Assembly (NCBI RefSeq): GCF_000622405.1
Contig: NZ_JASF01000009.1
Span: 1-32,606 of the forward strand
Origin: Sulfitobacter donghicola DSW-25 = KCTC 12864 = JCM 14565
Lineage (GTDB): Bacteria; Pseudomonadota; Alphaproteobacteria; Rhodobacterales; Rhodobacteraceae
Direction: 5' to 3'
DNA length: 32,606 bases
Every line of letters starts with the position of its first letter. The stretch's first letter is position 1. Positions 1 to 32,606 of the stretch are shown piece after piece. The notes under the pieces were generated by a model. That model saw only the letters and a program-made list of their open reading frames with translations, was not told the DNA's origin and made no database searches. The translations under genes were made by a program, and so were the position numbers.

Positions 1-618
1 ATCGAAACGCTGGCCTATGAAACACAAAGGCTGGGGTTGAACGGGCGGGTGGCTGGATCGCACCTGACCTCGATGCATTCGATGGACAATTATTATGTGT
101 CCAAACTGTTGCCGCTGATGGCCGAGGCCGATGTCAGAGCCATCCCCAACCCGCTGATCAATATCGTGCTACAGGGGCGCCATGATACATATCCCAAACG
201 CCGCGGCCTGACGCGGGTAAAGGAAATGCAGGCCCATGGGATCACGGTTGGATGGGGGCAGGATTGCGTGCTGGACCCTTGGTATTCGCTGGGCACCGCC
301 GATATGCTGGACGTTGCCTTTATGGGGTTGCACGTGGGGCAAATGACCAGCCCCGATGAAATGCGAAAATGTTTTGCGATGGTGACAGACGAAAACGCCA
401 AGATCATGGGGCTAGAGCACTATGGCCTAAAGGTTGGGGCAAAAGCATCGTTGGTGGTGCTAGACGCAGGTGACCCGATCGAAGCATTGCGCCTGCGCGC
501 GACACGGCTCTTTGTCGTCGCGAACGGCAAACTGGTGAGCGAAACCCCCCGCGCGGATGCAAAGATATCTTTGGCGGGGCGCCCTGCGGCGTCACGCAGG
601 CGGCATGTGACCACCTAA
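1..618 (+). CDS. codA: Cytosine/5-methylcytosine deaminase CodA, C-terminal part
   Basis: This is the C-terminal 205 residues of an amidohydrolase-superfamily cytosine deaminase. The open frame runs in from base 1 without a start and continues exactly the frame that leaves the other end of the window (31947-32606), giving a 425-residue protein on a circular molecule. Numbered on the joined protein, visible active-site residues are His241 (in SHLTSMHS, metal ligand) and Asp308 (in GWGQDCV, catalytic/metal Asp). The stretch NPLINIVLQGR..DTYPKRRG..RVKEM is nearly identical to E. coli CodA. Gln307, Cys309 and Leu311 replace His312, Asp314 and Phe316 of the E. coli enzyme. Loss of that Asp marks known 5-methylcytosine deaminases, so the substrate may be 5-methylcytosine (product thymine) rather than only cytosine. 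The gene is last in the BMP-type ABC importer operon and converges on nqrF over a shared terminator. Confidence 0.93.
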   Translation: METLAYETQRLGLNGRVAGSHLTSMHSMDNYYVSKLLPLMAEADVRAIPNPLINIVLQGRHDTYPKRRGLTRVKEMQAHGITVGWGQDCVLDPWYSLGTADMLDVAFMGLHVGQMTSPDEMRKCFAMVTDENAKIMGLEHYGLKVGAKASLVVLDAGDPIEALRLRATRLFVVANGKLVSETPRADAKISLAGRPAASRRRHVTT

Positions 619-654
619 CCCACAACCGCCGCAGCGGGGCAGGGGCCGAAAATC

Positions 655-692
655 AAACAACCCCGCAACAGATGCGGGGTTGTTTTGTTTTT
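655..692. terminator. Bidirectional intrinsic terminator between codA and nqrF
   Basis: A perfect 13-bp stem (655-667 with 673-685, GC-rich core CCCCGC) closes a 5-base loop. On the plus strand it is followed by TGTTTTT. On the minus strand the stem is followed by GATTTT. It lies between the 3' ends of two convergent genes and can end both transcripts. Confidence 0.85.
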
Positions 693-723
693 ATCGCCAT
701 TTTGACGGGGCCACTCAAAGGCG

Positions 724-1947
724 TTAACCGCCAAAATCATCCAGCATGATGTCTTCTGGATCAACGCCCATTTCGATCAGCATATTGGTGACAGACTGGT
801 TCATGATGGGCGGTCCACACATGTAATATTCACAGTCTTCTGGGGCAGGGTGGTTTTTCAGGTATTCGTCCATCAGCACGTTATGGATAAAGCCGGTATA
901 GCCTTTCCATTCGTCCTCGGGCAGGGCGTCTGACAGGGCAACATGCCATGTAAAGTTGTCAAACTGTTTGGCCAGCTCGTCAAAATCCTCAACAAAGAAC
1001 ATTTCACGTTTCGAGCGCGCACCATACCAAAAGGTGATCTTGCGATCGCGGTTTTCAAGGCGCTTGAGCTGGTCGAAAATGTGGCTGCGCATGGGGGCCA
1101 TGCCTGCACCACCGCCGATGAACACCATTTCTTTCTTGGTGTCGCGGGCAAAGAATTCGCCGTAAGGGCCGGAAATCGTGACCTTGTCACCTGGTTTCAG
1201 GTTGAAAATATAGGACGACATTTTGCCCGCAGGGATGCCGACCGAACCAGGAGGCGGGGAGGCAACACGCACGTTCAGCATGATCATGCCGCGCTCATCC
1301 GGATAGTTGGCCATGGAGTAGGCGCGCTCGATCGGTTCTTCCACATGGGATTCATATTCCCACAGTTTGAATTTGTCCCAATCTTCGCGGTACTCTTCCT
1401 GCACATCGAATTCGGAATACTTCAGATCATGCGCTGGGGCTTCGATCTGGATGTAGCCACCCGCGCGGAAGTTGACGTCTTCGCCTTCTGGCAAATCCAG
1501 AATAAGCGCCTTGATAAAGGTTGCGACGTTGTCGTTGGAACGCACGGTGCATTCCCATTTCTGCACGCCGAACACCTCTTCGGGGACTTCGATGTCCATG
1601 TCCTGTTTCACCGCAACCTGACAGGACAGGCGATCACCGCAAGAGGCTTCGCGTTTGGTGATATGGCCCTCTTCGGTGGGCAGGATCGACCCGCCACCAG
1701 AATGGACCTTTACGCGACATTGCGCGCAGGTACCGCCGCCACCACAGGCCGAGGGAACAAACAGTTTTTGTTCAGACAAGGTTTGCAGCAGCTTGCCGCC
1801 AGCCGGAACCGAGATCGTCTTTTCACCGTTGATGGTGATGTTGACGTTCCCCGTCGAGACCAGCTTGGAGCGCGCGGCGAGAATAATTGCAACAAGCGCG
1901 ATAACGATTGCTGTGAAAAGTAAGATACCAAGGCCAAAGGTTGCCAT
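724..1947 (-). CDS. nqrF: Na+-translocating NADH:quinone reductase subunit F
   Basis: NqrF is the electron-input subunit of Na+-NQR. It oxidises NADH at the cytoplasmic face and passes electrons through FAD and a 2Fe-2S cluster to the membrane subunits. The 407 residues match the usual length. One N-terminal membrane helix (about 3-25) is followed by a ferredoxin domain with cluster ligands Cys68, Cys74, Cys77 and Cys109. A ferredoxin-reductase module then carries the FAD motif RAYSMANYP (208-216), the nucleotide-binding loop GGGAGMAP (278-285), the CGPP motif (377-380) and the C-terminal LDDFGG. It is the last gene of nqrABCDEF, 13 bases after nqrE. No key residue appears to be missing. Confidence 0.98.
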
Positions 1948-1960
1948 CTGAGTTTCCCTT

Positions 1961-2569
1961 TTAGAGTTTCACGCCAGAGAAAGACATGAACGCCATAGCC
2001 ATCAGGCCAGCCGTGATGAAAGTAATGCCTAGACCCTGAAGGCCATCGGGAATGTCGGAGTATTTCAGCTTTTCGCGCACACCAGCCATCGCAGTGATGG
2101 CAAGGGCCCAGCCAAAGCCTGAAGAGATGCCATAGGTCACCGATTCAGGGAAATTATAGCTCCGCTCAACCATGAACAAAGACCCGCCAAGGATCGCACA
2201 GTTCACGGTGATCAGCGGCAGGAAAACACCCAGCGCGTTATAGAGCGGCGGGAAATATTTATCCAAAACCATCTCTAGGATTTGCACCAGCGCCGCGATG
2301 ACGCCGATATATGAGATCAGGCCAAGAAACGTCAGGTCAACCTCTGCAAAACCTGCCCATGCCAGTGCACCCGGTGCCAGCAGATAGGTCAGGATCAGGT
2401 TGTTGGCAGGCACCGTAATCGCCTGCACCACCATAACCGAAATACCCAGACCCAAGGCTGTTGAGATCTTTTTGGAAACAGCGATGAACGTACACATCCC
2501 CAAAAAGAACGACAGGGCGAGGTTCTCGACAAAGATTGCCTTTACGGCGATTGAAATCAAACCTTCCAT
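1961..2569 (-). CDS. nqrE: Na+-translocating NADH:quinone reductase subunit E
   Basis: NqrE is an integral membrane subunit of Na+-NQR with six helices. It pairs with NqrD around a pseudo-twofold axis, and the two hold an intramembrane iron-sulfur centre. Of 202 residues, Cys26 (in FFLGMCTF) and Cys124 (in TVNCAIL) sit where the paired cluster ligands are expected. The start ATG overlaps the nqrD stop by one base (TGATG on the minus strand), implying coupled translation. The protein is homologous to RnfA of the Rnf complex, but its place among nqrABCDF fixes the identity. Confidence 0.97.
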
Positions 2570-3222
2570 CAGTGTGCATCCATTACTTGAATTTTATATT
2601 CACGCTCTTCGACTTGCTCTGTCTTCCATGTGCGGAAGGCCCAGATCAAAAGCCCGATGATAAAGAACGCAGATGGCGGCAGCAGCAGCAGGCCGTTTGG
2701 CACATACCATCCGCCGTTGTTGACCGTTGGCAAAATGGTGATACCCATCAGGCTGCCCGAACCAAACAGCTCGCGGATGATGCCGACCAGCATAAGGATC
2801 AGCCCATAGCCCAGCCCGTTGCCGATGCCGTCAACGAAACTGTCGATGGGGCCGTTCTTCATGGCAAAAGCTTCGGCGCGGCCCATAACGATACAGTTTG
2901 TGATGATCAGGCCCACAAAGACCGACAGGGTTTTTGAAATCTCAAAGGCGTAGGCCTTGAGCATCTGGTCAACCAGAATAACCAAAGACGCGATGATGAC
3001 CATCTGCACAATGATCCGGATCGAACCCGGAATGTGGTTGCGGATCATCGAGATGAACATCGACGAAAACGCCGTCACCAATGTTACCGCGATCGCCATA
3101 ACCAGCGCCACTTTCAACGATGAGGTCACCGCCAGCGCCGAGCAAATCCCGAGAACCTGCAAGGTGATGGGGTTGTTATCGACCAGCGGGTCGATCAACA
3201 TTTTTCTACGGGTTTGTCCCAT
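2569..3222 (-). CDS. nqrD: Na+-translocating NADH:quinone reductase subunit D
   Basis: NqrD is the membrane partner of NqrE and shares the intramembrane iron-sulfur centre. The 217-residue protein has Cys27 (LGICSAL) and Cys110 (IITNCIV) as the two expected ligands, and the family signature [14 protein letters not shown]. It begins with a charged MGQTRRK segment, then hydrophobic helices throughout. Both ends overlap their neighbours by one base (TGATG with nqrC and with nqrE). The related RnfE is excluded by the operon context. Confidence 0.97.
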
Positions 3223-4043
3223 CAGATTTCTCCTTTTTTGAGCTTCTGAAGGAAGGGGCCGAAACCGGCCTCACCCATCCAGAACCTAACCAGGTTGTGG
3301 ACCCCATTGGTCGTGAGCGTCGCGCCCGCAAGGGCATCGATGTGATATTCATCCCCCGCCGCAGGGGCGGATTTTGAAACGCTGATGTGCAGGGTGCCTT
3401 CGTCATCAGACAGGCGCTGACCGTTCCAAAGAGCTTTCCAGCGCGGGTTATCCACTTCGGCGCCCAAACCAGGCGTTTCGGCGTGGTCATAAAACTGAAG
3501 GCCAAAGATATCGTTGCCGTTCTCTTCCAGCGCGATAAACCCGTATAGGGTCGACCACAGGCCATAGCCGTGAACGGGCAGGATCAGCTTGTCTATTTCA
3601 CCCGCATCATCGCGCAGAATGTAGACTGTCACGAATTTACCTTGGCGCACGATGCCGGCTGGATCATCGGCCAATGCGATTGATGTCGCAGGATCGTTGG
3701 CGGCCGCGCGGTCATCAAAGACAGCGGGGTCAAACTGATCCGTGAAATCGCCTGTGCTCAGCTCAAGAACCCGTGGCTCAAAAGCGGCAAAGGATTCAAC
3801 CACGTCTGCGCCTTCTTCGTAGATGCCAGCCACCTGAAGGATGTTGATCTGTTTGTCCTTCAGCGCGTTCACCTCTTGCAGCGGGCGCAAGGCAACCGCT
3901 GCGGCGGACACGATCATCGACGCAACAAGGCAAAGCGTGACCGCCACGAAAACGGTTTTCGGTGTCGAATCTGTTGGCAGGGCTAAAAAGCGGCCAATCG
4001 GACCTTTTGGCGCGACGACTACGTTTGTGTTTTCTTCAGACAT
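3222..4043 (-). CDS. nqrC: Na+-translocating NADH:quinone reductase subunit C
   Basis: NqrC carries a covalently bound FMN on its periplasmic domain and relays electrons between the NqrD/E centre and NqrB. An upstream in-frame start exists at 4091, but the ATG at 4043 is preceded by GGAGGG with nine bases of spacing and opens with MSEEN, so I chose it (273 residues). A membrane anchor spans about 31-50. The flavinylation motif is DALAGATLT (236-244), in which Thr242 should receive FMN from ApbE. The usual Ser of the SGAT box is Ala here, within the range seen in the family. The gene overlaps the end of nqrB by eight bases. Confidence 0.96.
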
Positions 4044-5235
4044 GACGTTTTGCCCTCCGACGAATGTTTGCTTGTACGACAAAGTGGTCAATCAATGGCG
4101 CAAAGACATTACCAAATAGGATTGCCAGCATCATCCCTTCTGGGAAGGCGGGGTTGATCACGCGGATCATCACCACCATGAAGCCAATCAGCGCCCCGTA
4201 AATATAGCGGCCCGCATTTGTATGGGATCCCGAAACGGGCTCGGTCACCATAAAGACAAGGCCAAAGGCATAGCCGCCCACAACAAGGTGCCAGTACCAA
4301 GGCATGGCAAACATCGGGTTCGTCTCGGAACCGATAGCGTTCAGCAAAAGCGAAAACCCGATCATGCCCGCAAGGCAGCCAACGATCATGCGGTAGTTGG
4401 CGATCTTGGTCGCCAGCAGGAACAACAGCCCGATAATCGCCGCGATGGTCGATGTTTCGCCCATTGATCCAGGCATAAAGCCGATAAAGCTGTCCCACCA
4501 TGTGAGGCCCTGTGCGGCCAGCGCCTGATAGCCGTCAGATGCCGACACAGCGAGGGCCGTTGCCCCCGTGAAACCATCCACAGGCACCCAAACGGAATCG
4601 CCAGACAGTTGCGCAGGATAGGCAAAATACAAAAATGCCCGCCCCGTCAGCGCAGGGTTGAGAAAGTTCTTACCGGTGCCGCCAAAGACTTCTTTGCCGA
4701 TGACCACACCGAAAACGATGCCTAGCGCAACCTGCCACAGCGGCGTGGTTGCTGGCAGGATCAGCGCATAAAGCATAGAGGTCACAAGGAAGCCCTCATT
4801 CACCTCATGGCGGCGCACGGTGGCAAAGATTACCTCAAAAATACCGCCAGCGATCAGCGTGGTCAGGTAGATCGGTATGAAATACATCGCGCCGTGCAGC
4901 ATATTGGCCAGCGGATTGGCAGGGTTAAACCCGATGCCCAAGGCCCCAATCACTGCGGCACGCCACCCAGAAGGGCCATAGGCCGCGATGGCCGTGTTTG
5001 TTTGCAGGCCGACATTATACAGACCCATCAAAATACAAGGAATGGTCGCCAGCACGACATAGGTCATGATGCGTTTCATATCGACATAAGACCGCGCGTG
5101 CGGCGCAACGGTGGTTACGGTCTTTGGCGTGTAGATGAAACTTTCGACCATCTCATAGATTGGAAAATAGCGCTCCCATTTCCCGCCCTTTAAGAAATCA
5201 GGCTCGATTTTATCAAAAAAACTTCTCAGGCCCAT
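4036..5235 (-). CDS. nqrB: Na+-translocating NADH:quinone reductase subunit B
   Basis: NqrB is the largest membrane subunit, contributing a covalent FMN, riboflavin, the quinone site and most of the Na+ path. At 399 residues it is close to the usual size. The cytoplasmic N-terminal tail is followed by about ten membrane helices. The flavin attachment box DGFTGATAL (220-228) places FMN on Thr226. GKEVFGGTGKNFLNPAL (180-196) and EPVSGSHTNAGR are conserved signatures also found in RnfD. Its start lies three bases after the nqrA stop and its end overlaps nqrC. Substrate of the plasmid-encoded ApbE. Confidence 0.97.
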   Translation of the reverse strand: MGLRSFFDKIEPDFLKGGKWERYFPIYEMVESFIYTPKTVTTVAPHARSYVDMKRIMTYVVLATIPCILMGLYNVGLQTNTAIAAYGPSGWRAAVIGALGIGFNPANPLANMLHGAMYFIPIYLTTLIAGGIFEVIFATVRRHEVNEGFLVTSMLYALILPATTPLWQVALGIVFGVVIGKEVFGGTGKNFLNPALTGRAFLYFAYPAQLSGDSVWVPVDGFTGATALAVSASDGYQALAAQGLTWWDSFIGFMPGSMGETSTIAAIIGLLFLLATKIANYRMIVGCLAGMIGFSLLLNAIGSETNPMFAMPWYWHLVVGGYAFGLVFMVTEPVSGSHTNAGRYIYGALIGFMVVMIRVINPAFPEGMMLAILFGNVFAPLIDHFVVQANIRRRAKRHV

Positions 5236-5238
5236 GGG

Positions 5239-6585
5239 TCAACCTTCCTTTTCGATGATTGTCAGGCAGTCACGTAAGGCGAGCCCATATTCGTATTTCG
5301 CTGGGCAGGCAAACCCTGCAAGGCTCAGGTCTTCTTCGTCGAGTTCCATCGCGCCGAGCGCCTGAGCCTGATCGGTGTCCATCGTAATCAGCGCACGCAA
5401 CAACTGTGTCGGCAGATAATCCTGCGGCATCAGCGTCTCAAAGGTGCCAACCGGCACCATGGCGCGGCGCCCGCCGTTCAGGTTGGACGTGAGCGGGAAC
5501 AAGCCGCGCGCCAGCGCCGAGCCCAGAACAGGCTGCACAGCATATTTGCTGATCATCGGCCTGATCCAACCCATCGGGATTTGTTTGTGATCTTCTTCGA
5601 TCAGCGTGATCTGGCGCGCATAGCGCCCTAGATACCCTGTTTCCCCTGCGCCCATCGTGCCGCTGAGGACCGAGCCAGAAATCACCCGAACAGGCGTGTC
5701 CGTTGCAAGATCGGGCGCGGCGATATCGGCCATCGAGGCCCCAACAACCGTGCGCACCACGCGCGGCTCGCCGCACATCGGCCCCGCGACGCTGATGATC
5801 CGTTCGCCGTCATACTGGCCAGTTTCCAAAAGGCGACCAACCGCAATCACATCCTGATAGCCGATGGTCCAGACCGTTTTGTCACCGTGGATCGGCTCTA
5901 GGAAATGGATGTGTGTGCCAGCTAGGCCCGCAGGGTGGGGGCCAGAGAAAACAGCGGTTTCAACGCTGCTGCTGTCACCAACTGCAATGTCGTTTTCGCC
6001 TGCGTGGCAAACATATGTTTTACCCTCGGACAGCTGCGAAATCGCGGTGACGCCACGGGCAAACGCGGCGGCATTTTCTGCAATGATCGGGGCAGGGTTG
6101 GCGGCCAATGGATCGGTATCCATGGCGGTCACAAAAATCGCGGCAGGGCGTGTTTCGGGGGCGGGAACCTTTGAATAAGGGCGCGTGCGGAATGACGTCC
6201 ACAAACCCGCCTGACACAGGCGTTCGGCCAAACCCTCGGGTGTTTTTTCATCGCCAACTGCTGAGAAATTAATCGCATCGCCCGCTTTTTCAGCAGCAAC
6301 TTCAATCTCGACGCTGATCAACTTGCGGCGCGCGCCACGGTTGATCGCTTTGATTCGCCCCGAAACGGGCGAAACAACCTGAACTTGCGGCGTGTCTTTA
6401 TGGGTGAAAATGGGTGTCCCGACCACGACAGGATCATCAACAGCAACCGACAATCGCGGCTTTAGCCCAATGTAATCATCCCCAAGGATCGCAACGGTTT
6501 TGACTGTTGTATCTTTGATGGATTCGTCATTCAGAACGCCTGAAATAGAAACATTCAGACCTTTCTTAAGCAAAAAATTCTGCAA
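5239..6585 (-). CDS. nqrA: Na+-translocating NADH:quinone reductase subunit A
   Basis: NqrA is the peripheral cytoplasmic subunit of Na+-NQR that packs on NqrB near the quinone site. The 448 residues fit the family. The opening LLKKGLNVSISG aligns with the usual IKKGLDLPI start, and an RnfC-like barrel-sandwich segment (HKDTPQVQVVSPVSGRI) follows. No ATG lies at the expected place. The best start is TTG at 6585, with GAGG six bases upstream. An ATT immediately before it and a second TTG four codons later are alternatives. It is the first gene of the operon, so the weak start may set the level of the whole complex. Confidence 0.95.
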   Translation of the reverse strand: MQNFLLKKGLNVSISGVLNDESIKDTTVKTVAILGDDYIGLKPRLSVAVDDPVVVGTPIFTHKDTPQVQVVSPVSGRIKAINRGARRKLISVEIEVAAEKAGDAINFSAVGDEKTPEGLAERLCQAGLWTSFRTRPYSKVPAPETRPAAIFVTAMDTDPLAANPAPIIAENAAAFARGVTAISQLSEGKTYVCHAGENDIAVGDSSSVETAVFSGPHPAGLAGTHIHFLEPIHGDKTVWTIGYQDVIAVGRLLETGQYDGERIISVAGPMCGEPRVVRTVVGASMADIAAPDLATDTPVRVISGSVLSGTMGAGETGYLGRYARQITLIEEDHKQIPMGWIRPMISKYAVQPVLGSALARGLFPLTSNLNGGRRAMVPVGTFETLMPQDYLPTQLLRALITMDTDQAQALGAMELDEEDLSLAGFACPAKYEYGLALRDCLTIIEKEG

Positions 6586-6769: not shown

Positions 6770-7807
6770 GTGTCTCGTTCAATCGGATTATCACGTCGTA
6801 ATTTCATCGTAATGCCGCTTTGCGCTGTTGGGCTTTCTGCCTGCAAGCTGGGCGATGAAATCCTAAAGTTCTCAGGCCTGACCATGGGGACGACATTCAG
6901 CCTTACGGTTGTTGATGCGCCCCGCGCGGTTGGTGAGGCAGAGGTTCAGAACGCTGTGAACACGGCTTTGGCGACTGTAAACAAACAGATGTCCAACTGG
7001 GACGAGACCTCAGAGATTTCGCGTTTCAACGCCAGCAAAAGCACCGATGAGCAGCAGATTTCGCCTGAGCTGGCCGAGGTCATGACAGCAGCCGAGCAGG
7101 TTCATATCGCCAGCGGCGGCAGCTTTGACACAACCGTCGGCCCCTTGATCGAGCTGTGGGGCTTTGGCGGGGATGATTCGAAACACAACGTGCCAAGCGC
7201 CCAAGATATTCAAATGGCGGCGCAGCGTTCCGGCCATGGGAACACGCTGCGCGTGGGCTCAGCTGCGCTACAGAAGAAACAGGATGACGTAAACGTCTAC
7301 CTCTCAGCCATCGGCAAAGGCTTTGGCGCGGATCTGATCGGGCGCGAGCTGGAAAAGATCGGCGTGAAAAACTATCTGATCGAAATCGGTGGTGATCTAT
7401 ACGCCGCTGGGTACAACGCCGAAGGCAGCGCGTGGCAGATCGGGATCGAAACACCAGACGCCAACACCCGCGGCCTGCTGGATCGTGTATCTGTTGCCAA
7501 CCTTGGTATGGCGTCATCCGGTGATTACCGGAACTTCTTTGAAGTGGACGGTACCGAATATTCCCACCTGATTGATCCACGCACCGGACATCCGGTAACC
7601 CACACCACCAAATCCGCAACGGTTCTGGCCGAAAGCGCGATGTTGGCGGATGCTTGGGCCACTGCGTTGCACGTGATGGGCCAAGAAGAAGGTCTGGCGC
7701 TGGCCGAACGCGAAGGCATTGCTGTTCTCTTCACCCAAGCAGATGTGAACGGCGCCGGCTTTACAACAACTGAAAGTGCGCGCTTTACAGCACTCCGAAG
7801 CGCGTAA
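6770..7807 (+). CDS. apbE: FAD:protein FMN transferase ApbE
   Basis: ApbE attaches FMN to the threonine of the [S/A/T]GAT boxes of NqrB and NqrC in the periplasm, using FAD and Mg2+. The start is GTG with GAGG seven bases upstream. The leader combines a twin-arginine motif SRRNF (8-12) with a lipobox LSAC whose Cys25 would be lipidated, so export as a folded lipoprotein is likely. Family motifs are MGTTFSL (39-45), GGSFDTTVGPL (116-126), AIGKGFGADLIG (180-191), EIGGDLYAAG (205-214), HLIDPRTGHP (266-275) and ADAWATAL (293-300; Asp294 a metal ligand). Length 345 is normal. It is divergent from nqrA and followed 19 bases later by nqrM. Confidence 0.96.
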   Translation: MSRSIGLSRRNFIVMPLCAVGLSACKLGDEILKFSGLTMGTTFSLTVVDAPRAVGEAEVQNAVNTALATVNKQMSNWDETSEISRFNASKSTDEQQISPELAEVMTAAEQVHIASGGSFDTTVGPLIELWGFGGDDSKHNVPSAQDIQMAAQRSGHGNTLRVGSAALQKKQDDVNVYLSAIGKGFGADLIGRELEKIGVKNYLIEIGGDLYAAGYNAEGSAWQIGIETPDANTRGLLDRVSVANLGMASSGDYRNFFEVDGTEYSHLIDPRTGHPVTHTTKSATVLAESAMLADAWATALHVMGQEEGLALAEREGIAVLFTQADVNGAGFTTTESARFTALRSA

Positions 7808-8075: not shown

Positions 8076-8078
8076 TCC

Positions 8079-10042: not shown

Positions 10043-10048
10043 TAGTTA

Positions 10049-18393: not shown

Positions 18394-18422
18394 TTGAAAT
18401 TTGGCAATCTTTGCCATACACT
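18394..18422 (+). promoter_or_regulatory. parDE promoter with built-in operator
   Basis: TTGAAA (18394-18399) and TACACT (18417-18422) are separated by 17 bases. The spacer contains the inverted repeat TGGCAA-TCT-TTGCCA (18402-18416). A ribbon-helix-helix antitoxin bound there would block polymerase, as expected for autoregulation by ParD/ParE. Confidence 0.6.
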
Positions 18423-18441
18423 CAGCCCAAAGGAGCACATA

Positions 18442-18672: not shown

Positions 18673-18675
18673 ATC

Positions 18676-18972
18676 TTGGAGAAAATCCGCCTTACCCCCC
18701 TCGCCCGACAAGACCTGCGCGACATCTGGACCTTTGGTGCCGAGACATGGGGAGACGCACAGGCCGAGCGGTATTTCGATGCGATCTACGCCACCCTAGA
18801 GCTGATCGCCGATTTCCCCGACATTGCGCGGCTGCGGCAAGAATTCTCGCCGCCCATCCGCCTGCACCCGCATCAAAGCCATGTCATCGCCTATGACGCT
18901 GCCGAGGGCGGGATTGATGTGATCCGCATCTTACATATGAAGGCAGATGTTTTGGCCTTGTTAGAGCCTTAG
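18676..18972 (+). CDS. parE: ParE-family toxin
   Basis: A 98-residue RelE/ParE-superfamily toxin starting at TTG (18676) with AAAGG seven bases upstream in the end of parD. Family features are LTPLARQDLRDIWTFGAETWGDAQAERYFDAI (7-38), then LIADFPDIARLR and the C-terminal strands SHVIAYDA..GIDVIRILH. The lack of RelE catalytic His/Arg arrangement favours a ParE gyrase poison over an mRNA nuclease. It converges on parB with only 34 bases between them, placing the addiction pair beside the partition genes. The gap has no clear terminator. Confidence 0.88.
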   Translation: MEKIRLTPLARQDLRDIWTFGAETWGDAQAERYFDAIYATLELIADFPDIARLRQEFSPPIRLHPHQSHVIAYDAAEGGIDVIRILHMKADVLALLEP

Positions 18973-21552: not shown

Positions 21553-21949
21553 CCAGTAAATCTGAAAAGAAGACAACACATAGTTTGTTATGTTTATGTA
21601 TCTTTAAGAAGTTTAGCTGGATTTTATGGACGTTAATTCAATGGGTTGACCTATTTTGGGGACCTGAATACAGGATGGCGGGGGCCCTGATACAGGGGCA
21701 AAGGTGCCCGAATACAGGGGCAAGGACTCCGATTCGCGGGATTGCAGGAACCCGAATACGGGTAGAGCCTAATATCGCCTGTTTAGAGCCTTTCGGGGTG
21801 ATGCGGCTCTGATCTCTCCCCAAAGTCATCCCGTATTCAGGTACCTTTAACACCAGAGCGCGCGTTGCGTTTGCCACTGCTTAAGGAACCCGTGCGCAGC
21901 TTTACTGTAGGTGCCTTTTGGGGTAACGTCCAAGAAAAAGAGCAGACAG
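21553..21949. other. Replication origin with iterons
   Basis: The non-coding region between parA and rep. An AT-rich stretch (about 21555-21650) suits strand opening. Next come repeats of CC[CT]GAATAC[AG]GG at 21663-21674, 21686-21704 (one A missing, extended by GGCAAAGG), 21707-21725 (extended by GGCAAGG) and 21751-21762, and an inverted copy at 21830-21841. Starts are 23, 21 and 44 bases apart, with a poor copy near 21729 filling the gap, so the spacing is about 22 bases or two helical turns. A TTGACC box (21646-21651) just before the first iteron hints that Rep may repress its own promoter. No clear DnaA box was found. Confidence 0.82.
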
Positions 21950-23158: not shown

Positions 23159-23806
23159 TCAAATCGCGTTGGCGTCAATCACTTCGTCGATTTGGGACAG
23201 ATTGGAAGCCTCTCTGATATGAGAGACATTGACCAGATCGGATGTTTCGATCTTGTCGCGTGCCTCTGCATCCGATTTACCACCCGCAAGATGCCTGCGC
23301 AAAAGACGGTCGTTGATGTCATCGTCTTTGGCTTCCAGAAAAATTTTGTAATCGATGAATTTGCCTGCCTCGGCCCATGCTCCTTGATCAAGGAAGAGGT
23401 AGTTTCCTTCCAGAACCGCGATTTGCAGATCGGGGCGCAGCAACACGCCTTGGCTCACGGGGTTGTGCAATTCTCGGCTATAGATCGGCCACCAAAATTC
23501 GGCTTTTGCGGTTTTTAGGTTTTGAATGGCAGCAAGCAGAAGATCTGGGTTGAACGTGTCTTCGCGGCCTTTGAATTTGACAAGGTCGCGTTCCTCTAGC
23601 TCGGCGTTGGTCATGTGAAACCCGTCCATTTGCAGGGCCTGCGCCGTGACGCCAGCGTCTTGCAGATCGCGAACCAGATTTTCAGACAGGGTGGTTTTTC
23701 CAGCCGCGGGGGGGCCTGCAATGCCAACCAGAAACGTGCCCGATATATCAGCCGCTGAGCATGCTTGCAGGACGCGCGCGCAAAGGCCTGCGGGGGAATT
23801 TGTCAT
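23159..23806 (-). CDS. P-loop kinase of the uridine kinase/phosphoribulokinase type
   Basis: A 215-residue P-loop kinase. The ATG at 23806 overlaps the stop of the upstream pfkB-type gene as ATGA. A longer frame lies inside that gene and was set aside. The Walker A is GPPAAGKT (31-38), followed by QMDGFHMTNAELEER (substrate-binding Asp), KFKGREDTFNPDLL, PIYSRELHNP, AVLEGNYLFLDQGAW (Walker B-like) and the lid RLLRRHLAGGKS. This pattern suits kinases of nucleosides, pantothenate or sugars. A nucleoside role would agree with the nucleobase importer on the same plasmid, but the substrate is not readable. It converges on rep; the 36-base gap holds only a T6 run. Confidence 0.85.
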   Translation of the reverse strand: MTNSPAGLCARVLQACSAADISGTFLVGIAGPPAAGKTTLSENLVRDLQDAGVTAQALQMDGFHMTNAELEERDLVKFKGREDTFNPDLLLAAIQNLKTAKAEFWWPIYSRELHNPVSQGVLLRPDLQIAVLEGNYLFLDQGAWAEAGKFIDYKIFLEAKDDDINDRLLRRHLAGGKSDAEARDKIETSDLVNVSHIREASNLSQIDEVIDANAI

Positions 23807-24642
23807 ACCGGTTTTACCCCGTCTCTGGGGCCAAAGACCTGCGTTGAGTTTGAGGCAACCAGCATTGCGTTTTCGGTGGCCTTGATCAAATCCGCCCCTG
23901 TTGATTTGTAATAGCAAAAGGCGCCGTGAAAAACATCGCCCGCGCCCAACGTATCCACCGAGATTACCTTGGGCGGGTGCAGTGTATTTTCCTGCGCGCC
24001 CTGTTTGATGGTGATCGCCTCGGCGCCGCGTGTGATGACCCAGCTTGCGTTCGGGTTTTGGGCGGGGAAGCCTTCGGTGTTGGCTTGGGTTTCGAATTTT
24101 TGCGAGGCAAGAAAGTGGTCTGCAACCTCGAGCGCGAAAGCCGATTGCGCCCGCAGGCTGCCCGCGTCAATGACGACTTCGGCGCGGCTGTCTTTGGTTT
24201 GTAGAATGTCCATCATCGAGGTTGGATAGTGCTGATCCCACAAAAAGACATCGGTGTCTTTTATCCTTTCCGCCAGCGCAGACATGTCGCCCGACGGGTC
24301 GGATATGGGCGAGGTAATGACAGTTCGGCTGCTTTTTTCCTTTGCGGAAATGATCACGGCAAGGGGTGGTTCAAAATCGGGATCGGCCAGATCAATGAGG
24401 TCGATCCCGTGTTTGTCCAGCTCTCGTCTGATCTCGATCGAGCGGTTGCTATTGGCCCCGACCATGGACACCAGCCGCGCGTGACCGCCCAGCATGGCAT
24501 AGGTGATCGCGGCATTCAGGGCAGGGCCGCCAGCAAAGATCTCAGACTGGAGGGATAGGGTTTTTGTATCCTCATTCGGGAAGTTTTCGGTCATGGTGAT
24601 GAGGTCCAATGTGGAAAGCCCCAGAAATGTGCCTGTTACCAT
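23803..24642 (-). CDS. PfkB/ribokinase-family kinase
   Basis: A 279-residue ribokinase-fold kinase. The N-terminal signature region is EIFAGGPALNAAITYAMLGGHARLVSMVG, and the second signature DTLGAGDVFHGAF contains the anion hole and the catalytic Asp. STLDLITMTENFPNEDTKT near the start is where sugar or nucleoside is usually recognised. It is somewhat short for the family but has both signatures. Its ATG overlaps the end of the upstream two-TM gene by seven bases, and its stop overlaps the downstream kinase start by four, so three proteins are made together. Members phosphorylate ribose, fructose, nucleosides and similar compounds; which one is unknown here. Confidence 0.9.
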   Translation of the reverse strand: MVTGTFLGLSTLDLITMTENFPNEDTKTLSLQSEIFAGGPALNAAITYAMLGGHARLVSMVGANSNRSIEIRRELDKHGIDLIDLADPDFEPPLAVIISAKEKSSRTVITSPISDPSGDMSALAERIKDTDVFLWDQHYPTSMMDILQTKDSRAEVVIDAGSLRAQSAFALEVADHFLASQKFETQANTEGFPAQNPNASWVITRGAEAITIKQGAQENTLHPPKVISVDTLGAGDVFHGAFCYYKSTGADLIKATENAMLVASNSTQVFGPRDGVKPV

Positions 24643-25680: not shown

Positions 25681-27102
25681 TCAGGCCAGATTTTTCCAAA
25701 GGGTTTCACAGACGGGGGGAATGGTTTTTTCGATGGCTTGCATGGCGTCCACAATCAAATCCTCGCGCCATCTGCGCCCTGCAATTTGCACGCCGATGGG
25801 CTGCGCACCCCCTGCGGATTGGGCAATATGGGTAGGCAGATTGCCCGCAGGCAGGCCCAGAAAATTCATGATGAATGACCAATGCGCCGCGCCTAAAACA
25901 TCCAGAACGCCTTCGGCGCCTTCTTCGTCACGTGCGGGCGCAAAGAAGGGTTTGAGCAGGAAGGGCGTTAGCACCAGCGGATAATCCTCAAGAAACAGAG
26001 ACCACGCGCGCGCATAGTGGGTGCGTTGGGCCATCTGGACCAACAGGTCTTTGCCCTCATAGGGGGGGAACTGAAGATAGTATTCATCAAAGATCGTGTT
26101 CAAATCCGCCGAGCCGTGTGCCTTGATATCAGGGCCCAGCATTTCCTGCACTTCGCCCAGTAGCGCGCGATAGCCGACTTCGCCTGTTTCACGCGCCATA
26201 GGGGGCTCGACAGCTTCGACGATATACCCTGCATCTGATAGGGCAGAGGCGGCTTTGTCCAATGCGGTTGCCACCTCGGGGTGCAGGCCAAAGCCGAAAT
26301 CATCGTAGGATACAGCCACGCGGATCGGCCCCTGCAACGGGGCGCCGTGCCATGGCATCGGCACGTGGAACGGATCGCGCGGATCGGGGGCGATAAGGGC
26401 AGGCATCGACAGGGCAAGGTCGGCCGCATTGCGGGCAAGCAGCCCCTGAACGGACATGGATTGCGCCAGCAATCCGCGCTCGGCCTTTTGGCTGGGGTTA
26501 TAGGCAGGCACACGGCCTAATCCCGGTTTGACCGTCACGGCCCCATTGGCCGAAGCGGGAAACCGCAGCGACCCGCCGATGTCGTTGCCATGGGCCAGCG
26601 CGCCAATCCCCGCCATCACTGCCGATCCAGCGCCGCCCGAAGACCCCCCCGCCGAAACATGTTTGCCCCAAGGGTTGTGCGTGCGCCCAAACAGCGGGTT
26701 ATCCGTATCGGCGCGAAAGGAAAACTCGGGCGTGTTGCTGCGCCCGATCACGATCGCGCCTGCCGCCTTTAGGTTGCGCACAACGGGGGCGTCATCGGGG
26801 GCGATCATATCCTTTAGGGCCAGAACGCCATTCGACGTGGCAGAGCCCTTTTGATCGACGTTGATCTTGATGGTTACGGGCACACCATGCAGCGGCCCCT
26901 TTGGACCTTCCATTGCGTCCAGCGCTGTGGCCTCGGCCCTTGCGGTATCGGCCAAGGAGTCAACCACCGCATTCAGGCTGGGGTTTATCGCCTCCATCCG
27001 CGCAATCGCGGCCTCGGTGGCCTCGGTCGCGGTGAGGGCGCCGGCATGTGTGGCGGTGGCGATTTCTGTCGCGCTGAATTGCCAAAGGGGTGCTTTACGC
27101 AT
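25681..27102 (-). CDS. Amidase-signature family amidase
   Basis: A 473-residue hydrolase of the amidase-signature family. The frame extends to a GTG at 27120, but the ATG at 27102 with AAGGA eight bases upstream is better. Catalytic residues are visible as Lys79 in VTIKINVD, the cis-Ser Ser154 in AGGSSGGAG and nucleophile Ser178 in GNDIGGSLRFP. GPLHGVPVTIK and IGRSNTPEFSF are typical. There is no signal peptide, so it works in the cytoplasm, and no GatB/GatC neighbours, so it is not the tRNA amidotransferase subunit. It is divergent from the BMP-type importer, suggesting a linked substrate. The 112 bases downstream (25569-25680) show nothing supportable. Confidence 0.93.
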   Translation of the reverse strand: MRKAPLWQFSATEIATATHAGALTATEATEAAIARMEAINPSLNAVVDSLADTARAEATALDAMEGPKGPLHGVPVTIKINVDQKGSATSNGVLALKDMIAPDDAPVVRNLKAAGAIVIGRSNTPEFSFRADTDNPLFGRTHNPWGKHVSAGGSSGGAGSAVMAGIGALAHGNDIGGSLRFPASANGAVTVKPGLGRVPAYNPSQKAERGLLAQSMSVQGLLARNAADLALSMPALIAPDPRDPFHVPMPWHGAPLQGPIRVAVSYDDFGFGLHPEVATALDKAASALSDAGYIVEAVEPPMARETGEVGYRALLGEVQEMLGPDIKAHGSADLNTIFDEYYLQFPPYEGKDLLVQMAQRTHYARAWSLFLEDYPLVLTPFLLKPFFAPARDEEGAEGVLDVLGAAHWSFIMNFLGLPAGNLPTHIAQSAGGAQPIGVQIAGRRWREDLIVDAMQAIEKTIPPVCETLWKNLA

Positions 27103-27413
27103 GGATGTTTTCCTTTTCACATGGCGCGGTTCTGTGGCTGAGGAAATACCTCGCTGTTGGTTTAGTCAAGTTGGAGCTGAGACAGGGGCGCGATGGAAAG
27201 CCCATTTCGAATCGTGAACCTGTGGTTGTGGGGCGTTCCCGTTGCAGCGGCTTTGGCGGCCTGCCGAGTTGATTAAATTTTAGGCACCTGCGAGGCTGCG
27301 AAAATTATTTGGACTGGTGGAACAAGGCTCTGGGTGAAATGGCCCAAAGATTTATTGACCATTTGATAAACTTTCTAAAGCCTTCCCTTATCCAACCTTC
27401 AGGAGAGAACGAC
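27103..27413. promoter_or_regulatory. Divergent region between amidase and importer operon
   Basis: About 310 bases without a gene. It must hold promoters for both directions. TTGACC (27355-27360) is a possible -35 box for the importer but no good -10 lies at 16-18 bases. The importer ribosome site AGGAG (27401-27405) stands eight bases before its ATG. I looked for a purine- or xanthine-type riboswitch and could not trace one. Confidence 0.35.
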
Positions 27414-28421
27414 ATGCCACATGGTCCAAGACCTACACGCCGTCACTTTATGATAACAACAGCTGCTTCTGCGCTGGTAATGAACGCCGCGCAGGTTGCT
27501 GCCGCCGAGCCGATCAAAACCGCAGGGATTTATACCGTTCCAGTCGAGCAGCAATGGGTTAGCCGAATTCACATCGCGGCCGTTGCGGCCCAAGATCGCG
27601 GTGACATCGCCTATACCTACTCCGAAAACGTGAGCAACACAGATTACGCGCGCGTCATTCGTGAATACGCCGAGGCAGGTAACAAGCTGATCATCGGCGA
27701 AGTTTTCGGTGCCGAACAGGAAGCCCGCGAAGTTGCGGCGGAATATCCTGATGTGGCCTTCCTGATGGGCTCTAGCTTTAAGGAAGATCCGGCGCTTCCG
27801 AACTTTGCTGTTTTTGACAACTATATTCAGGATGCGGCCTATCTATCGGGCATCATTGCGGGTGCGATGACCACATCCAATAACATCGGCATGGTCGGTG
27901 GTTTCCCGATCCCCGAAGTGAACCGTTTGATGCACGCGTTCATGGCGGGTGCAAAGGAAATGAACCCTGATATCGCCTTCCAAGTTAGCTTTATCGGCAG
28001 CTGGTTTGATCCGCCAAAGGCGAAAGAGACTGCCTTTGCCATGATCGAAAACGGAGCCGACATCCTATATGCAGAACGCTTTGGCGTGTCTGATGCGGCA
28101 AAGGAAAAGGGCATTCTGGCAATCGGTAACGTCATCGATACCCAGTCAGAATATCCCGAAACGGTTGTGGCTTCGGCCATCTGGCATTTCGAACCGACCT
28201 TGGACAAAGCCATTGCCGAAGTTCAGGCAGGCAGCTTTGCAGCGGCTGATTACGGTATTTATTCCTACATGAACAAGGGCGGCACATCGCTGGCGCCTTA
28301 TGGGACGTTTGAGGGCAAGATCCCTGAAAAGGCATTGGCCTTGGTCACCAAACGCACCGAAGAAATCATGTCTGGGGCGTTTACTGTCGCGGTGAACGAC
28401 GACGAGCCGACCTCGTCGTGA
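27414..28421 (+). CDS. BMP-family ABC transporter substrate-binding protein
   Basis: A 335-residue periplasmic binding protein of the BMP/PnrA family, whose members bind nucleosides, purines or related bases. The ATG at 27414 has AGGAG eight bases before it. A longer frame to 27309 is rejected for lack of a ribosome site. The leader TRRHFMITTAASALVMNAAQVAAAE contains a twin-arginine motif and a cleavage site near AAA|EP, so it is exported folded and soluble. Diagnostic stretches: YARVIREYAEAGNKLIIGE, FLMGSSF, FDNYIQDAAYLSGIIAGAMT and NIGMVGGFPIPEVNRLMHAFMAGAKEMNP. It is the first gene of a five-gene operon ending in codA across the junction; the stop overlaps the ATPase start as GTGA. Confidence 0.94.
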   Translation: MPHGPRPTRRHFMITTAASALVMNAAQVAAAEPIKTAGIYTVPVEQQWVSRIHIAAVAAQDRGDIAYTYSENVSNTDYARVIREYAEAGNKLIIGEVFGAEQEAREVAAEYPDVAFLMGSSFKEDPALPNFAVFDNYIQDAAYLSGIIAGAMTTSNNIGMVGGFPIPEVNRLMHAFMAGAKEMNPDIAFQVSFIGSWFDPPKAKETAFAMIENGADILYAERFGVSDAAKEKGILAIGNVIDTQSEYPETVVASAIWHFEPTLDKAIAEVQAGSFAAADYGIYSYMNKGGTSLAPYGTFEGKIPEKALALVTKRTEEIMSGAFTVAVNDDEPTSS

Positions 28422-29959
28422 CGCAAACGCAGGGTGAAGCGCTTCGCCTAGAAGGGATCACCAAACGATTTGGTAAGCTGACCGCAAATGATGCGGTCAG
28501 CCTTTCGTTGAATGCGGGTGAGGTTGTCGCGCTGTTGGGTGAAAATGGCGCGGGCAAAACCACCCTGATGAATATCCTGTTCGGCCAATACACCCCCGAT
28601 GCTGGCACCGTGCGCGTGTTTGGCAAAACCCTCGCCTCTGGCAACTCAAGAGCGGCGATTGAGGCGGGCGTGGGGATGGTGCACCAGCATTTCACCTTGG
28701 CCGATAACCTGACGGTTCTGGAGAACATCACCCTCGGGGTTGAGCCGATGACCCGTTTCAGGGCGGATCACAAAGGCGCGCGCGAACGGATTCTAACCCT
28801 TTCGCAAAACTATCACCTAGAGGTTTCTCTGGATGCAAAGGTAGGGGCCTTAACGGTGGGCGAGCGCCAGCGCGTTGAGATCCTAAAGGCGCTGTACCGC
28901 GATGTGCGCATCCTGATTTTGGATGAACCGACGGCGGTTTTGACGCCCCAAGAGGTGGACAAGCTGTTTGCCACGCTGCGGCTGGCCATTGCGGGCGGCC
29001 TGTCGATTGTTTTCATTTCCCACAAACTGCACGAGGTGCTGGACATCGCGGATCGGGTTGTCGTCTTGCGCCATGGCAAGGTGGTGGGCGAAGCGGATAC
29101 AAAAGACACCGACAAAGCGGCGCTGGCGACAATGATGATGGGCACCAGCGCCCAAGCACCCGATGTTGCGGCGGCCACCCCTGGAAAGGCGCTGCTAAAG
29201 CTGGCGGAGGTCTCCACCCCTGATCGCGGCAATGCTCCGGGTTTGAAATCGGCTTCGCTGGATTTGCTGGCGGGGCAGATTATCGGGCTGGCGGGTGTAT
29301 CGGGCAACGGGCAGGCGGCGCTGGCCGATATTGTGGGGGGCGTGGAAAAACCCGCCTCTGGCCAGCTGGTTCTGAACGACACAGTGATAACAGATTGGAC
29401 CCCCCGCAGCGCGGTTGCCAATGGCATCGCCCGCATTCCCGAAGACCGTCACAAGACCGGAACAATTGCCGATTTTGACCTGACGCAAAACGCTGTGCTG
29501 GAACGCTATACCGCAGGGGAATTCAGCAAGGCAGGCTGGATGAATTGGCGCGCCGCGCGCAAGTTTGCCACCGACATCATCGCAAAATACGATGTCCGCT
29601 GCCCCGGTCCTGAAACGCCGATCAGGTTGTTATCTGGGGGGAATATGCAAAAGCTGATTTTGGGCCGCACGTTAGAGGCAGGCCCGCAGGTTATTCTGGC
29701 CAACCAACCTGTGCGGGGATTGGATATTGGCGCGGTGAACTATGTGCATAGTCAGCTATTGGCGGCGCGGGATCGCGGCGCGGCTGTTTTGCTGATCTCG
29801 GAAGATCTGGATGAAATCATGGCCCTGTCAGACGTCATCCATGTGATTGCGGATGGCCGCCTATCGCCCGGGTTTGATCGGGGCACCATGACGCCCGCGC
29901 AGCTGGGCCTGTGGATGGCTGGCCAAGGCACAGAAGGCGAGCCCGACTATGCGACTTGA
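28418..29959 (+). CDS. ABC transporter ATPase, two nucleotide-binding domains
   Basis: A 513-residue fused ATPase of the YufO/NupO (RbsA-like) type. The first domain has GENGAGKT (41-48), the weak signature TVGERQRVEI and LILDEPTAVLTPQE. The second domain lacks the Walker Lys (GVSGNGQAAL), as usual for this class, but has a full signature LLSGGNMQK and ILANQPVRGLDIG. One site is therefore degenerate by design. It starts with GTG overlapping the binding-protein stop. It should energise import of a nucleobase or nucleoside through the two permeases that follow. Confidence 0.95.
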   Translation: MTQTQGEALRLEGITKRFGKLTANDAVSLSLNAGEVVALLGENGAGKTTLMNILFGQYTPDAGTVRVFGKTLASGNSRAAIEAGVGMVHQHFTLADNLTVLENITLGVEPMTRFRADHKGARERILTLSQNYHLEVSLDAKVGALTVGERQRVEILKALYRDVRILILDEPTAVLTPQEVDKLFATLRLAIAGGLSIVFISHKLHEVLDIADRVVVLRHGKVVGEADTKDTDKAALATMMMGTSAQAPDVAAATPGKALLKLAEVSTPDRGNAPGLKSASLDLLAGQIIGLAGVSGNGQAALADIVGGVEKPASGQLVLNDTVITDWTPRSAVANGIARIPEDRHKTGTIADFDLTQNAVLERYTAGEFSKAGWMNWRAARKFATDIIAKYDVRCPGPETPIRLLSGGNMQKLILGRTLEAGPQVILANQPVRGLDIGAVNYVHSQLLAARDRGAAVLLISEDLDEIMALSDVIHVIADGRLSPGFDRGTMTPAQLGLWMAGQGTEGEPDYAT

Positions 29960-30998
29960 ACCCATCACCAACCCCAGTGTTTTGCGCAAGGTGGGGCTGC
30001 CCTTTGGGGCGCTGTGCCTTACGTTTTTGGCCGCATCCCTGCTGGCCATGATCGCGGGGGCAAACCCGTTTTCCGTGCTGAGCCTGATTGTCAAAGGCGC
30101 GTTTGGATCAAAGTTCGCGATCCTCGAAACGCTGAACCGCGCCACGCCTTTGATCTTTACGGGCCTTGCTGTGGCTGTCGCGTTTCGGGCCAAGTTTTGG
30201 AACATCGGGGCAGAGGCGCAGCTATATGCAGGCGCCTTGCTGACGGTGCTGCTTGGGACGGGGGCGTTGCCATGGCCCAGTTTCGCCTTGCTGCCCGCGC
30301 TGGCCATTGCCGCGATATTGGCGGGGGCGCTGATATTGCTGGTGCCTGCGTTTCTGAAAACCCGTTTTGGCGTAGACGAAGTTGTCACCACCTTGCTGTT
30401 CAACTTTATCTTTCTGCTGTTCATCTCGATGTTATTGGAAGGGCCGATAAAAGACCCGATGGGCATGGGCTGGCCCAAATCCGCCCGTGTTGTTCCAGAG
30501 GCGCGATTGCCGCGGATGCTGCCAGACTTGCGTCTTCATTGGGGGTTTGGCGTGGCGTTGATTTCTGCGGTGGTGATCTGGGCCATCCAGACGCGCAGCA
30601 CCTTGGGGTATGAAATGCGCGCCGTTGGCCTGAACAGGCAAGCGGCGGCATTTGCGGGCATCCCCGTCAACCGCGTGTTCCTCAAGACGGCGCTATTGTC
30701 TGGCGGGTTGGCCGCGCTTGCCGGTTTCTCCGAAGTGGCGGGCGTAAAGGGGAGCCTCACGCTCGACCTGTCGCCGGGGTATGGGTACACGGGGATCATC
30801 GTGGCGATGCTGGCGCTGCTAAACCCATTGGCCGTTGTGGGTGCTGCCCTGTTTGTGGCGGGGATTTTTGTGGGTGCAGATAGCATGAGCCGCGCTGCAC
30901 ATGTGCCGACCTATCTGGCAGACATGATGCTGGCCATTGCGCTGTTGCTGATGGTGCTGGCGATCATGCTAACGCGTTTCCGCATCGTAAAGGATTGA
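29949..30998 (+). CDS. ABC transporter permease 1 (nucleoside/nucleobase type)
   Basis: A 349-residue permease of the BPD_transp_2 family (YufP/NupP-like) with about eight to ten helices. Conserved parts are NRATPLIFTGLAVAVAFRAKFWNIGAEAQLYAGAL, FGVDEVVTTLLFNFIF and EMRAVGLNRQAAAFAGIPVNRVF, the last being the cytoplasmic coupling loop that touches the ATPase. It overlaps the ATPase gene by 11 bases and is followed by permease 2 after four bases. The two permeases form a heterodimeric channel. Confidence 0.94.
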   Translation: MRLEPITNPSVLRKVGLPFGALCLTFLAASLLAMIAGANPFSVLSLIVKGAFGSKFAILETLNRATPLIFTGLAVAVAFRAKFWNIGAEAQLYAGALLTVLLGTGALPWPSFALLPALAIAAILAGALILLVPAFLKTRFGVDEVVTTLLFNFIFLLFISMLLEGPIKDPMGMGWPKSARVVPEARLPRMLPDLRLHWGFGVALISAVVIWAIQTRSTLGYEMRAVGLNRQAAAFAGIPVNRVFLKTALLSGGLAALAGFSEVAGVKGSLTLDLSPGYGYTGIIVAMLALLNPLAVVGAALFVAGIFVGADSMSRAAHVPTYLADMMLAIALLLMVLAIMLTRFRIVKD

Positions 30999-31002
30999 CG
31001 TC

Positions 31003-31947
31003 ATGGAGATCGTGGAAATTCTGTTCACCGCCAGTTTCTGGGCCGCTGCCATCCGCATCGCCAGCCCGCTGATCTTTGCGACCTTGGGCGAGCTGATCTG
31101 CGAAAGGGCGGGTGTTTTGAACCTCGGGATTGAGGGGATCATGGTTGCGGGGGCTTTTGCGGGCTGGATGGCTGTTTATGCGGGCACGGGGCTTTGGGCT
31201 GGGGTCGGGGTCGCGATGGTTGTGGGCATGTTTTACGGCTTGCTGCACAGCACGCTGACCGTTCCTTTTGGCCTGTCCCAGCATGTTGTCGGGTTGGGGG
31301 TGACGCTGCTGGCTACGTCTTCGACCTATTACGCCTATCGCCTTGCTCTGCCAGAGGTCACAACCCCGCCGAAAATTCAGGCCTTTCAGCCCTATGAAAT
31401 CCCGTTGCTGTCCGACATTCCCCTGCTGGGGGAGGCCGTGTTTTCGCAAACGCCACTGACCTATCTGGCCTTTGTCCTTGTCGGCGTGGTGGCCTTTGTC
31501 TTGTACCGCACGCCTTTGGGGTTGGCGGTGCGGGCGGCGGGGGAAAACCCCAATGCCGTTGCCGCGCAGGGGCTATCGGTGACGGCCATACGCATGGGCG
31601 CGGTGATCGTTGGTAGCGGGTTAATGGCTGTTGGCGGAGCCTTCCTGACCATGTCGGCCTTTGACAGTTTCTTTTTCGAAATGGTGAACGGGCGCGGCTG
31701 GATTTGTATTGCCTTGGTGGTGTTCGGATCATGGCGTCCGGGTAAGGCGCTGCTGGGGGCTGTTTTATTCGCCGCCTTTGATGCGCTTCAAATCAGGGTT
31801 CAGCAAACCAGTTTGGGCACACTTGTGCCCTATCAAATATTCCTGATGATGCCCTATATCCTGTCCATCCTAGCGCTGGTCATCATGTCCAGACGCGCCG
31901 AGGTTCCCGCGGCCTTGATGGTGCCATTTAACAAAGGAGAACGCTGA
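31003..31947 (+). CDS. ABC transporter permease 2 (nucleoside/nucleobase type)
   Basis: A 314-residue partner permease (YufQ/NupQ-like). The N-terminal FWAAAIRIASPLIFATLGELICERAGVLNLGIEGIMV is highly typical of this family, as is the coupling loop GLAVRAAGENPNAVAAQGLSVTAIRMG. It ends in a one-base TGATG overlap with codA, so importer and deaminase are translationally linked. That link is the main reason to think the transported solute is the CodA substrate. Confidence 0.94.
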   Translation: MEIVEILFTASFWAAAIRIASPLIFATLGELICERAGVLNLGIEGIMVAGAFAGWMAVYAGTGLWAGVGVAMVVGMFYGLLHSTLTVPFGLSQHVVGLGVTLLATSSTYYAYRLALPEVTTPPKIQAFQPYEIPLLSDIPLLGEAVFSQTPLTYLAFVLVGVVAFVLYRTPLGLAVRAAGENPNAVAAQGLSVTAIRMGAVIVGSGLMAVGGAFLTMSAFDSFFFEMVNGRGWICIALVVFGSWRPGKALLGAVLFAAFDALQIRVQQTSLGTLVPYQIFLMMPYILSILALVIMSRRAEVPAALMVPFNKGER

Positions 31948-32606
31948 TGTTTGATCTGATCGTAAAGGGCGGCGTTCTGCCTGACGGGACTGTCGCAGAC
32001 ATCGGCATAACGGGTGACAAGATCGCCGCGATCGGGGATCTGGCCGGCGCTGACTCCGGTCAGGTGATTGATGCCAGCGGAGACCTAGTCAGCGCGCCCT
32101 TTGTGGATCCGCATTTCCATCTGGATGCAACGCTGTCCTATGGCACGCCGCGCATCAATGCCTCTGGCACCTTGTTGGAGGGGATCGGATTATGGGGCGA
32201 GCTAAAAGACGAAATGACCCAAGACCAAGTGGTCGAGCGCGCGCTGACTTATTGTGACTGGGCGGTCAGCATGGGCCTGTTGGCGATCCGCAGCCATGTG
32301 GATGTGTGCGACGATCGCCTGTTGGGCGTTGAGGCGCTGCTGCATGTGCGCGAGCAGGTGAAGGACTATATCGACCTCCAGCTGGTCGCCTTTCCCCAAG
32401 ACGGTTTTTACCGCGACCCGACCGCGCGCGAGAACACAATCCGCGCCTTGGATATGGGCGTTGATGTTGTCGGGGGTATCCCGCATTTCGAACGTACCAT
32501 GGCCGATGGGGCCGCATCCGTGCGCGAGCTGTGCGAGATCGCGGCCGCGCGGGGATTGCAGGTGGATATGCACTGCGATGAAACCGACGACCCGATGTCG
32601 CGCCAT
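31947..32606 (+). CDS. codA: Cytosine/5-methylcytosine deaminase CodA, N-terminal part
   Basis: The first 220 residues of CodA, ending on a whole codon at the last base and resuming at base 1. The ATG overlaps the permease stop and AAAGGAGA stands a few bases upstream. Metal ligands His56 and His58 are in DPHFHLD, Gln151 in FPQDGF, and His209 and Glu212 (the general acid/base) in MHCDETDD. All are displaced by five from E. coli CodA numbering. HVDVCD and DVVGGIPHFE are further matches. The joined 425-residue enzyme has all catalytic residues, but differs from E. coli CodA next to the catalytic Asp (see 1-618). It acts in the cytoplasm on the imported base, releasing ammonia. Confidence 0.94.
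   Translation, partial: MFDLIVKGGVLPDGTVADIGITGDKIAAIGDLAGADSGQVIDASGDLVSAPFVDPHFHLDATLSYGTPRINASGTLLEGIGLWGELKDEMTQDQVVERALTYCDWAVSMGLLAIRSHVDVCDDRLLGVEALLHVREQVKDYIDLQLVAFPQDGFYRDPTARENTIRALDMGVDVVGGIPHFERTMADGAASVRELCEIAAARGLQVDMHCDETDDPMSRH

Follow-up and report, generated by a model that had tools for sequence, protein, structure and literature searches.

We report that contig C9 of Sulfitobacter donghicola DSW-25 (NZ_JASF01000009.1), analysed here over its full length of 32,606 nucleotides (nt) and referred to as the window, reads as a complete circular, putatively RepB-I-type Sulfitobacter plasmid of 32,606 bp that the assembler opened inside codA, a predicted cytosine deaminase gene; we put the probability of this reading at about 0.97. 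Since the two ends of codA are joined by homology rather than by reads, we infer the physical circularity of the molecule. That the window is a whole plasmid is supported by its being an entire contig, by its ends being adjacent codA residues, by the placement of neither end elsewhere in the genome at high identity, and by its single replication and partition unit. An earlier sequence-only reading had described this DNA as a complete circular plasmid cut inside codA, and the same four observations bear it out.

The genome assembly consists of nine contigs (3,276,862; 92,402; 88,659; 32,606; 22,421; 10,023; 8,571; 7,223 and 1,392 bases) and is 99.92% complete. C9 has the same 32,606 bases as the window, so that nothing was cut off by the window limits.

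Continuity of codA across the contig ends

The frame leaving the right end of the contig (31947-32606) comprises 660 nt, that is, 220 whole codons, and the frame entering at base 1 is open from that base to its stop codon at 618; joined, they encode 425 amino acids followed by a stop. Both the whole-codon ending and the in-phase entry had been claimed from the letters alone, and both are confirmed. The E. coli CodA structure sequence (PDB 1r9y) aligned through the join without a gap at that point (hcdeiddeqsrf+vet against hcdetddpmsrh+iet), in agreement with the residues that the sequence-only reading had given. It had also proposed aligning the 425-residue fusion to CodA homologues. We did so with 19 codA loci, drawn from 16 genomes of the same genus (35 others were searched) and from three genomes of other families (59 other genomes in all), and none showed a gap or missing residues at residue 220/221; 15 of the 19 were gap-free throughout, and the remaining four had one single-residue gap far off, at residue 14, 33 or 34. 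The further statement that 425 residues is the length of CodA holds as a close value and not as an exact one, as cytosine deaminases of this type have chains of 423-431 residues in the PDB. The joined protein scored 766.7 bits with the cytosine deaminase subfamily model PRK07572 (cut-off 438) and 413 with the E. coli-type model PRK09230, under the cut-off of 483.

The HCDE motif, which we take to contribute the catalytic Glu of CodA as well as a metal ligand, lies directly before the cut, and the alignment with E. coli CodA places the conserved Asp that precedes the DPWY stretch on the other half. With these residues on separate halves, neither half alone should be an enzyme. DNA searches with both ends and a CodA protein search revealed no other high-identity continuation of either end in the strain's own genome, where the second-best CodA-like match, on the chromosomal contig C5, was 28% identical. 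That the two ends of a contig are consecutive residues of one gene is not expected by chance.

Weight of the junction evidence

Several observations weigh against closure. The ends of C9 overlap by 2 nt, whereas PMC9025767 calls a draft contig circular when its ends overlap by 50 or more identical nt; with 2 nt only, terminal overlap was ruled out as proof, and such a short overlap is expected if the assembler trimmed it. When chromosomal ends were joined at random 2,000 times, an open frame of at least 425 amino acids spanned 28% of the joins, which rules out the in-phase frame as proof of closure; the corresponding figure for 2,000 true chromosomal adjacencies was 41%. Because random joins do as well in 28% of cases, openness is weak alone; homology decides. 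The detrended cumulative guanine-plus-cytosine (GC) skew is lowest at 20,676, near rep, and peaks at 1,337, just beyond the join, and its range was reached by 0 of 2,000 shuffles of 1-kb blocks; this signal is confounded by gene orientation and was rejected as proof, being consistent with closure and nothing more. The remaining contigs of the assembly served as a control: the end of each was joined to its start in the same way, and homology at the joins was examined for C1, C3, C4 and C8. Not every sister contig speaks for closure. In C4, a 585-amino-acid frame crosses the join, near residue 336, and its MobA/MobL Pfam match (34-213) ends before that point; the join of C7 has short frames only, and that of C6 reads N.

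The same control gave three contigs that read through. C3 does so in a His phosphatase gene (Pfam match 4-200, join near residue 158), and C1 in an ABC permease gene with the join near residue 45, over which all ten listed plasmid homologues align unbroken (for example 5-282), nine of them starting at residue 29 or earlier. C8 reads through in an acetyltransferase gene, with the join near residue 42 and one homologue (68%) spanning 13-175 unbroken. The behaviour of C1, C3 and C8 fits an assembly made up of trimmed circles, short of proof.

An overlap below the 50 identical nt given in PMC9025767 also suits another reading, in which the plasmid is linear or C9 is a fragment with ends that landed in codA accidentally. 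We regard this as extremely improbable, given that in all 19 homologous loci the codons at the two ends of C9 follow directly on one another within one gene and that no inverted repeats of at least 25 nt pairing both ends of C9 were found. An identical self-joining contig would likewise be produced by the unit of something larger, whether a multimer, a tandem duplication or a chromosomally integrated copy, with closure confined to the assembly graph. No second high-identity place came up when the strain's own genome was searched with the CodA protein and with three parts of the window (1-3000, 8000-20000 and 27000-32606), and C9 carries a replication and partition unit; an arrangement of this kind is thus very unlikely.

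Should the plasmid indeed be circular, the window represents an entire replicon, and what is absent from it becomes informative. Among the 31 window frames scanned with Pfam, neither a second initiator nor any relaxase or transfer family was seen, and Rfam and tRNA scans of the window gave no matches. Assemblies routinely contain closed plasmids that have been cut at an arbitrary base, and circular plasmids are ordinary; the parts worth keeping are the chromosome-like composition of this plasmid and its cargo, the only Na+-translocating NADH:quinone reductase (Na+-NQR) detected in the strain.

Replication and partition backbone

The window was said to hold one origin, one Rep and one ParAB, in agreement with the Pfam scan of the 31 frames, which found one Rep_3 initiator, one ParA and one ParB, and with the repeat search, which found a single iteron cluster of four direct copies (22, 22 and 44 nt apart) and one inverted copy (Table 1). 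The parA-rep region is 76.3% identical in DNA to pDSM107133_b (CP085156), which PMC9025767 types as RepB-I and lists with a partitioning system; among the matches listed, this is the highest that has a published type. The parAB partition genes expected of RepB-I are present, and the backbone of ParB, ParA, iterons and Rep_3 thus appears closest to a published RepB-I replicon. Weaker Rep matches occur in the same genome on C2 (41%) and C3 (29%). Judged from these families, Rep would bind the iterons at about 21.66-21.85 kb and start replication, ParAB would partition the plasmid, and ParDE would act against its loss.

The iterons were also considered as a common mark of related rep genes. The pattern, taken from the window, was tested in 29 of 80 related rep loci and recurred in only four of the 29, at most 600 bp upstream of rep, and the idea was rejected.

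Table 1. Predicted features of the 32,606-nt window
Position	Strand	Feature	Basis
1..618	+	codA 3' part, residues 221-425 and stop, continuing 31947-32606 over the contig ends	frame, PDB alignment, subfamily profile, homologous loci
724..6585	-	nqrF, nqrE, nqrD, nqrC, nqrB, nqrA (Na+-NQR)	NqrA, NqrF over NCBIfam cut-offs; B-E by Pfam
6770..7807	+	apbE, flavin transferase	PF02424
7776..8075	+	nqrM, NQR maturation protein	PF04400
8419..9828	-	DUF3179 protein	family match; 68% DNA match over 761 bases on C5
11189..12736	+	PBP-like and OmpA-domain protein	family match
12806..14988	+	two DctP-type solute-binding proteins	family match
15153..17399	+	BisC/TorA-like molybdopterin S/N-oxide reductase, beside the DctP genes	bisC_fam 888.4 bits, under cut-off 1017.55
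17413..18369	-	EamA-family transporter	family match
18394..18972	+	parDE-type toxin-antitoxin pair, beside parB	family match
19007..20059	-	parB	PF02195
20066..21463	-	parA, partition_RepA-like ATPase, under that model's cut-off	family match
21658..21846	.	iterons, presumed oriV, between parA and rep	repeat search
21911..23122	+	rep, Rep_3 initiator, RepB-I by nearest typed relative	Rep_3 domains
23159..24642	-	nucleoside/uridine-kinase-like and PfkB-family kinase genes, overlapping frames	family match
25681..27120	-	amidase, PRK07487 subfamily	subfamily match
27309..31947	+	Bmp solute-binding protein, ABC ATPase and two permeases, running into codA	family matches
31947..32606	+	codA 5' part, residues 1-220, with HxH and HCDE motifs	frame, PDB alignment, subfamily profile, homologous loci

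A predicted plasmid-borne Na+-NQR

All six subunits, NqrA to NqrF, are encoded on C9 (NqrA and NqrF score above equivalog cut-offs, and the other four were identified by Pfam), with nqrM and apbE, whose product presumably serves the maturation of NqrB and NqrC, divergent from nqrABCDEF. The plasmid would therefore supply the only Na+-NQR detected in the cell, together with its own maturation factors, and Na+ pumping is predicted. NuoB is encoded on the chromosome; judging from this one subunit, the strain probably has NQR alongside complex I.

Across 62 genomes of the genus, NqrA exceeded the curated cut-off in one, the strain's own, and there on C9 only. Five of the 61 others carry divergent nqr clusters in which NqrA is 28-36% identical, one of the five with internal stops, and six further genomes of the genus gave weak NqrA matches. 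The lineage of the C9 NqrA differs from that of the nqr clusters in the other five genomes. Family-wide, 75 of 295 genomes (own included) match the C9 protein, and in 40 of the 294 others the match reaches at least 56% identity across most of its length; at 27 of the 29 loci examined from among these closer matches, apbE and nqrM lie beside nqrA in the same layout within the flanking sequence covered. Operons for nqr are also present on other roseobacter plasmids, and our search of the open-licence literature found nothing on NQR together with a plasmid in Roseobacter, Rhodobacteraceae or Sulfitobacter. As a small natural replicon bearing a full Na+-NQR gene set and the maturation genes that go with it, C9 lends itself to the question of why a marine organism with a complex I subunit gene on its chromosome maintains a plasmid-borne sodium pump as well.

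Chromosome-like composition

Composition was compared with a chromosomal reference of 11 sampled 20-kb pieces (about 7% of C5); the window was set against all 11, and each chromosomal piece was excluded from its own reference. The GC content of the window is 56.7%, against a chromosomal mean of 55.5%, and lies within the 2.5% that PMC9025767 allows for chromids; the C1 (56.2%) and C3 (55.8%) pieces lie within it too, and GC therefore does not discriminate here. Tetranucleotide correlation (TETRA r) to the chromosome was 0.84-0.88 when the window was taken in overlapping 20-kb stretches and 0.51-0.83 for the chromosomal pieces, and stood at 0.64, 0.67 and 0.36 for C1, C3 and C2 (one piece each, that of C2 shorter at 16.4 kb). 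For relative synonymous codon usage, r was 0.978 for the window (0.982 and 0.950 for its halves), 0.930-0.982 for the chromosomal pieces, and 0.928, 0.887 and 0.836 for the same single pieces of C1, C3 and C2. In both codon usage and tetranucleotides, C9 is unexpectedly nearer to the chromosome than these pieces are.

Of the four chromid features set out in the accessible text of PMC9025767, three were found in this form: a parAB operon, the GC content, and codon and tetranucleotide usage, the last by correlations, whereas that study used clustering; the fourth is a copy number below two. The smallest chromid among those listed there has 65,426 bp. A tentative and rather doubtful reading is that C9 is a very small chromid, a 32.6-kb replicon that may have settled long enough to acquire the chromosomal codon and tetranucleotide signature, carrying the sole Na+-NQR of the genome and a codA operon that in several relatives lies on contigs of chromosomal size. 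A mosaic of chromosomal genes from the same lineage would look identical in composition. If the chromid reading is true, a respiratory module lives on a mini-chromosome, and the case is useful for asking how small a chromid can be.

The codA operon and other cargo

The gene order bmp-ATPase-permease-permease-codA is contiguous in all five codA loci of relatives that were examined, four of them on contigs of 3.27-4.79 Mb and one on a contig of 149,528 bases. Taking the locus of genome G002 as reference, the other four match it in the operon only, as if a bmp-ABC-codA module had settled in different places. On one side of the G002 locus, two stretches have matches on C5 (1.2 kb at 76% and 0.15 kb at 70%), and the other flank gave no match. 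A chromosomal origin site was considered and rejected, as a one-flank match and flanks not common to the relatives define no ancestral site; relocation of the operon from the chromosome is accordingly not established by these comparisons. The Bmp-type ATP-binding cassette (ABC) transporter and CodA would form an uptake and deamination operon, with enzyme functions assigned from the families.

A 253-amino-acid protein with no Pfam match lies in window 10270-14988 along with the PBP-OmpA protein and the two DctP-type proteins, and no TRAP permease was seen among the window frames scanned. A 310-amino-acid protein (24636-25568), flanked by the PfkB-family kinase and amidase genes, has neither a Pfam nor a PADLOC match; PADLOC was run on six window proteins and returned no matches. 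A syntenic plasmid elsewhere in the genus was sought with window 8000-20000, four candidates per genome being scored, and was rejected: the matches in 61 genomes are fragmentary, the longest being 3.8 kb at 69% (genome G023).

Comparison with known replicons

For the respiratory cassette, a plasmid of Phaeobacter sp. G2 (CP104104; 119,939 bp) has the same gene order and orientation as C9, with 77.2% DNA identity over window 724-5943; it differs from C9 in its larger size and in the other neighbours of the cassette. The NQR of Sulfitobacter genome G009 is like that of C9 in having six nqr genes and apbE, and unlike it in that its NqrA is 34% identical, apbE lies downstream and co-directional, and the cluster sits on a contig of 3,271,523 bp. 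For the backbone, pDSM107133_b, a RepB-I replicon of Rhodobacterales that PMC9025767 calls a chromid, shares with the window the layout of parB-parA divergent from rep; by contrast, it measures 246,683 bp against 32.6 kb and carries different cargo adjoining the backbone. Alongside these replicons, C9 is a further example of an established plasmid type, small and chromid-like.

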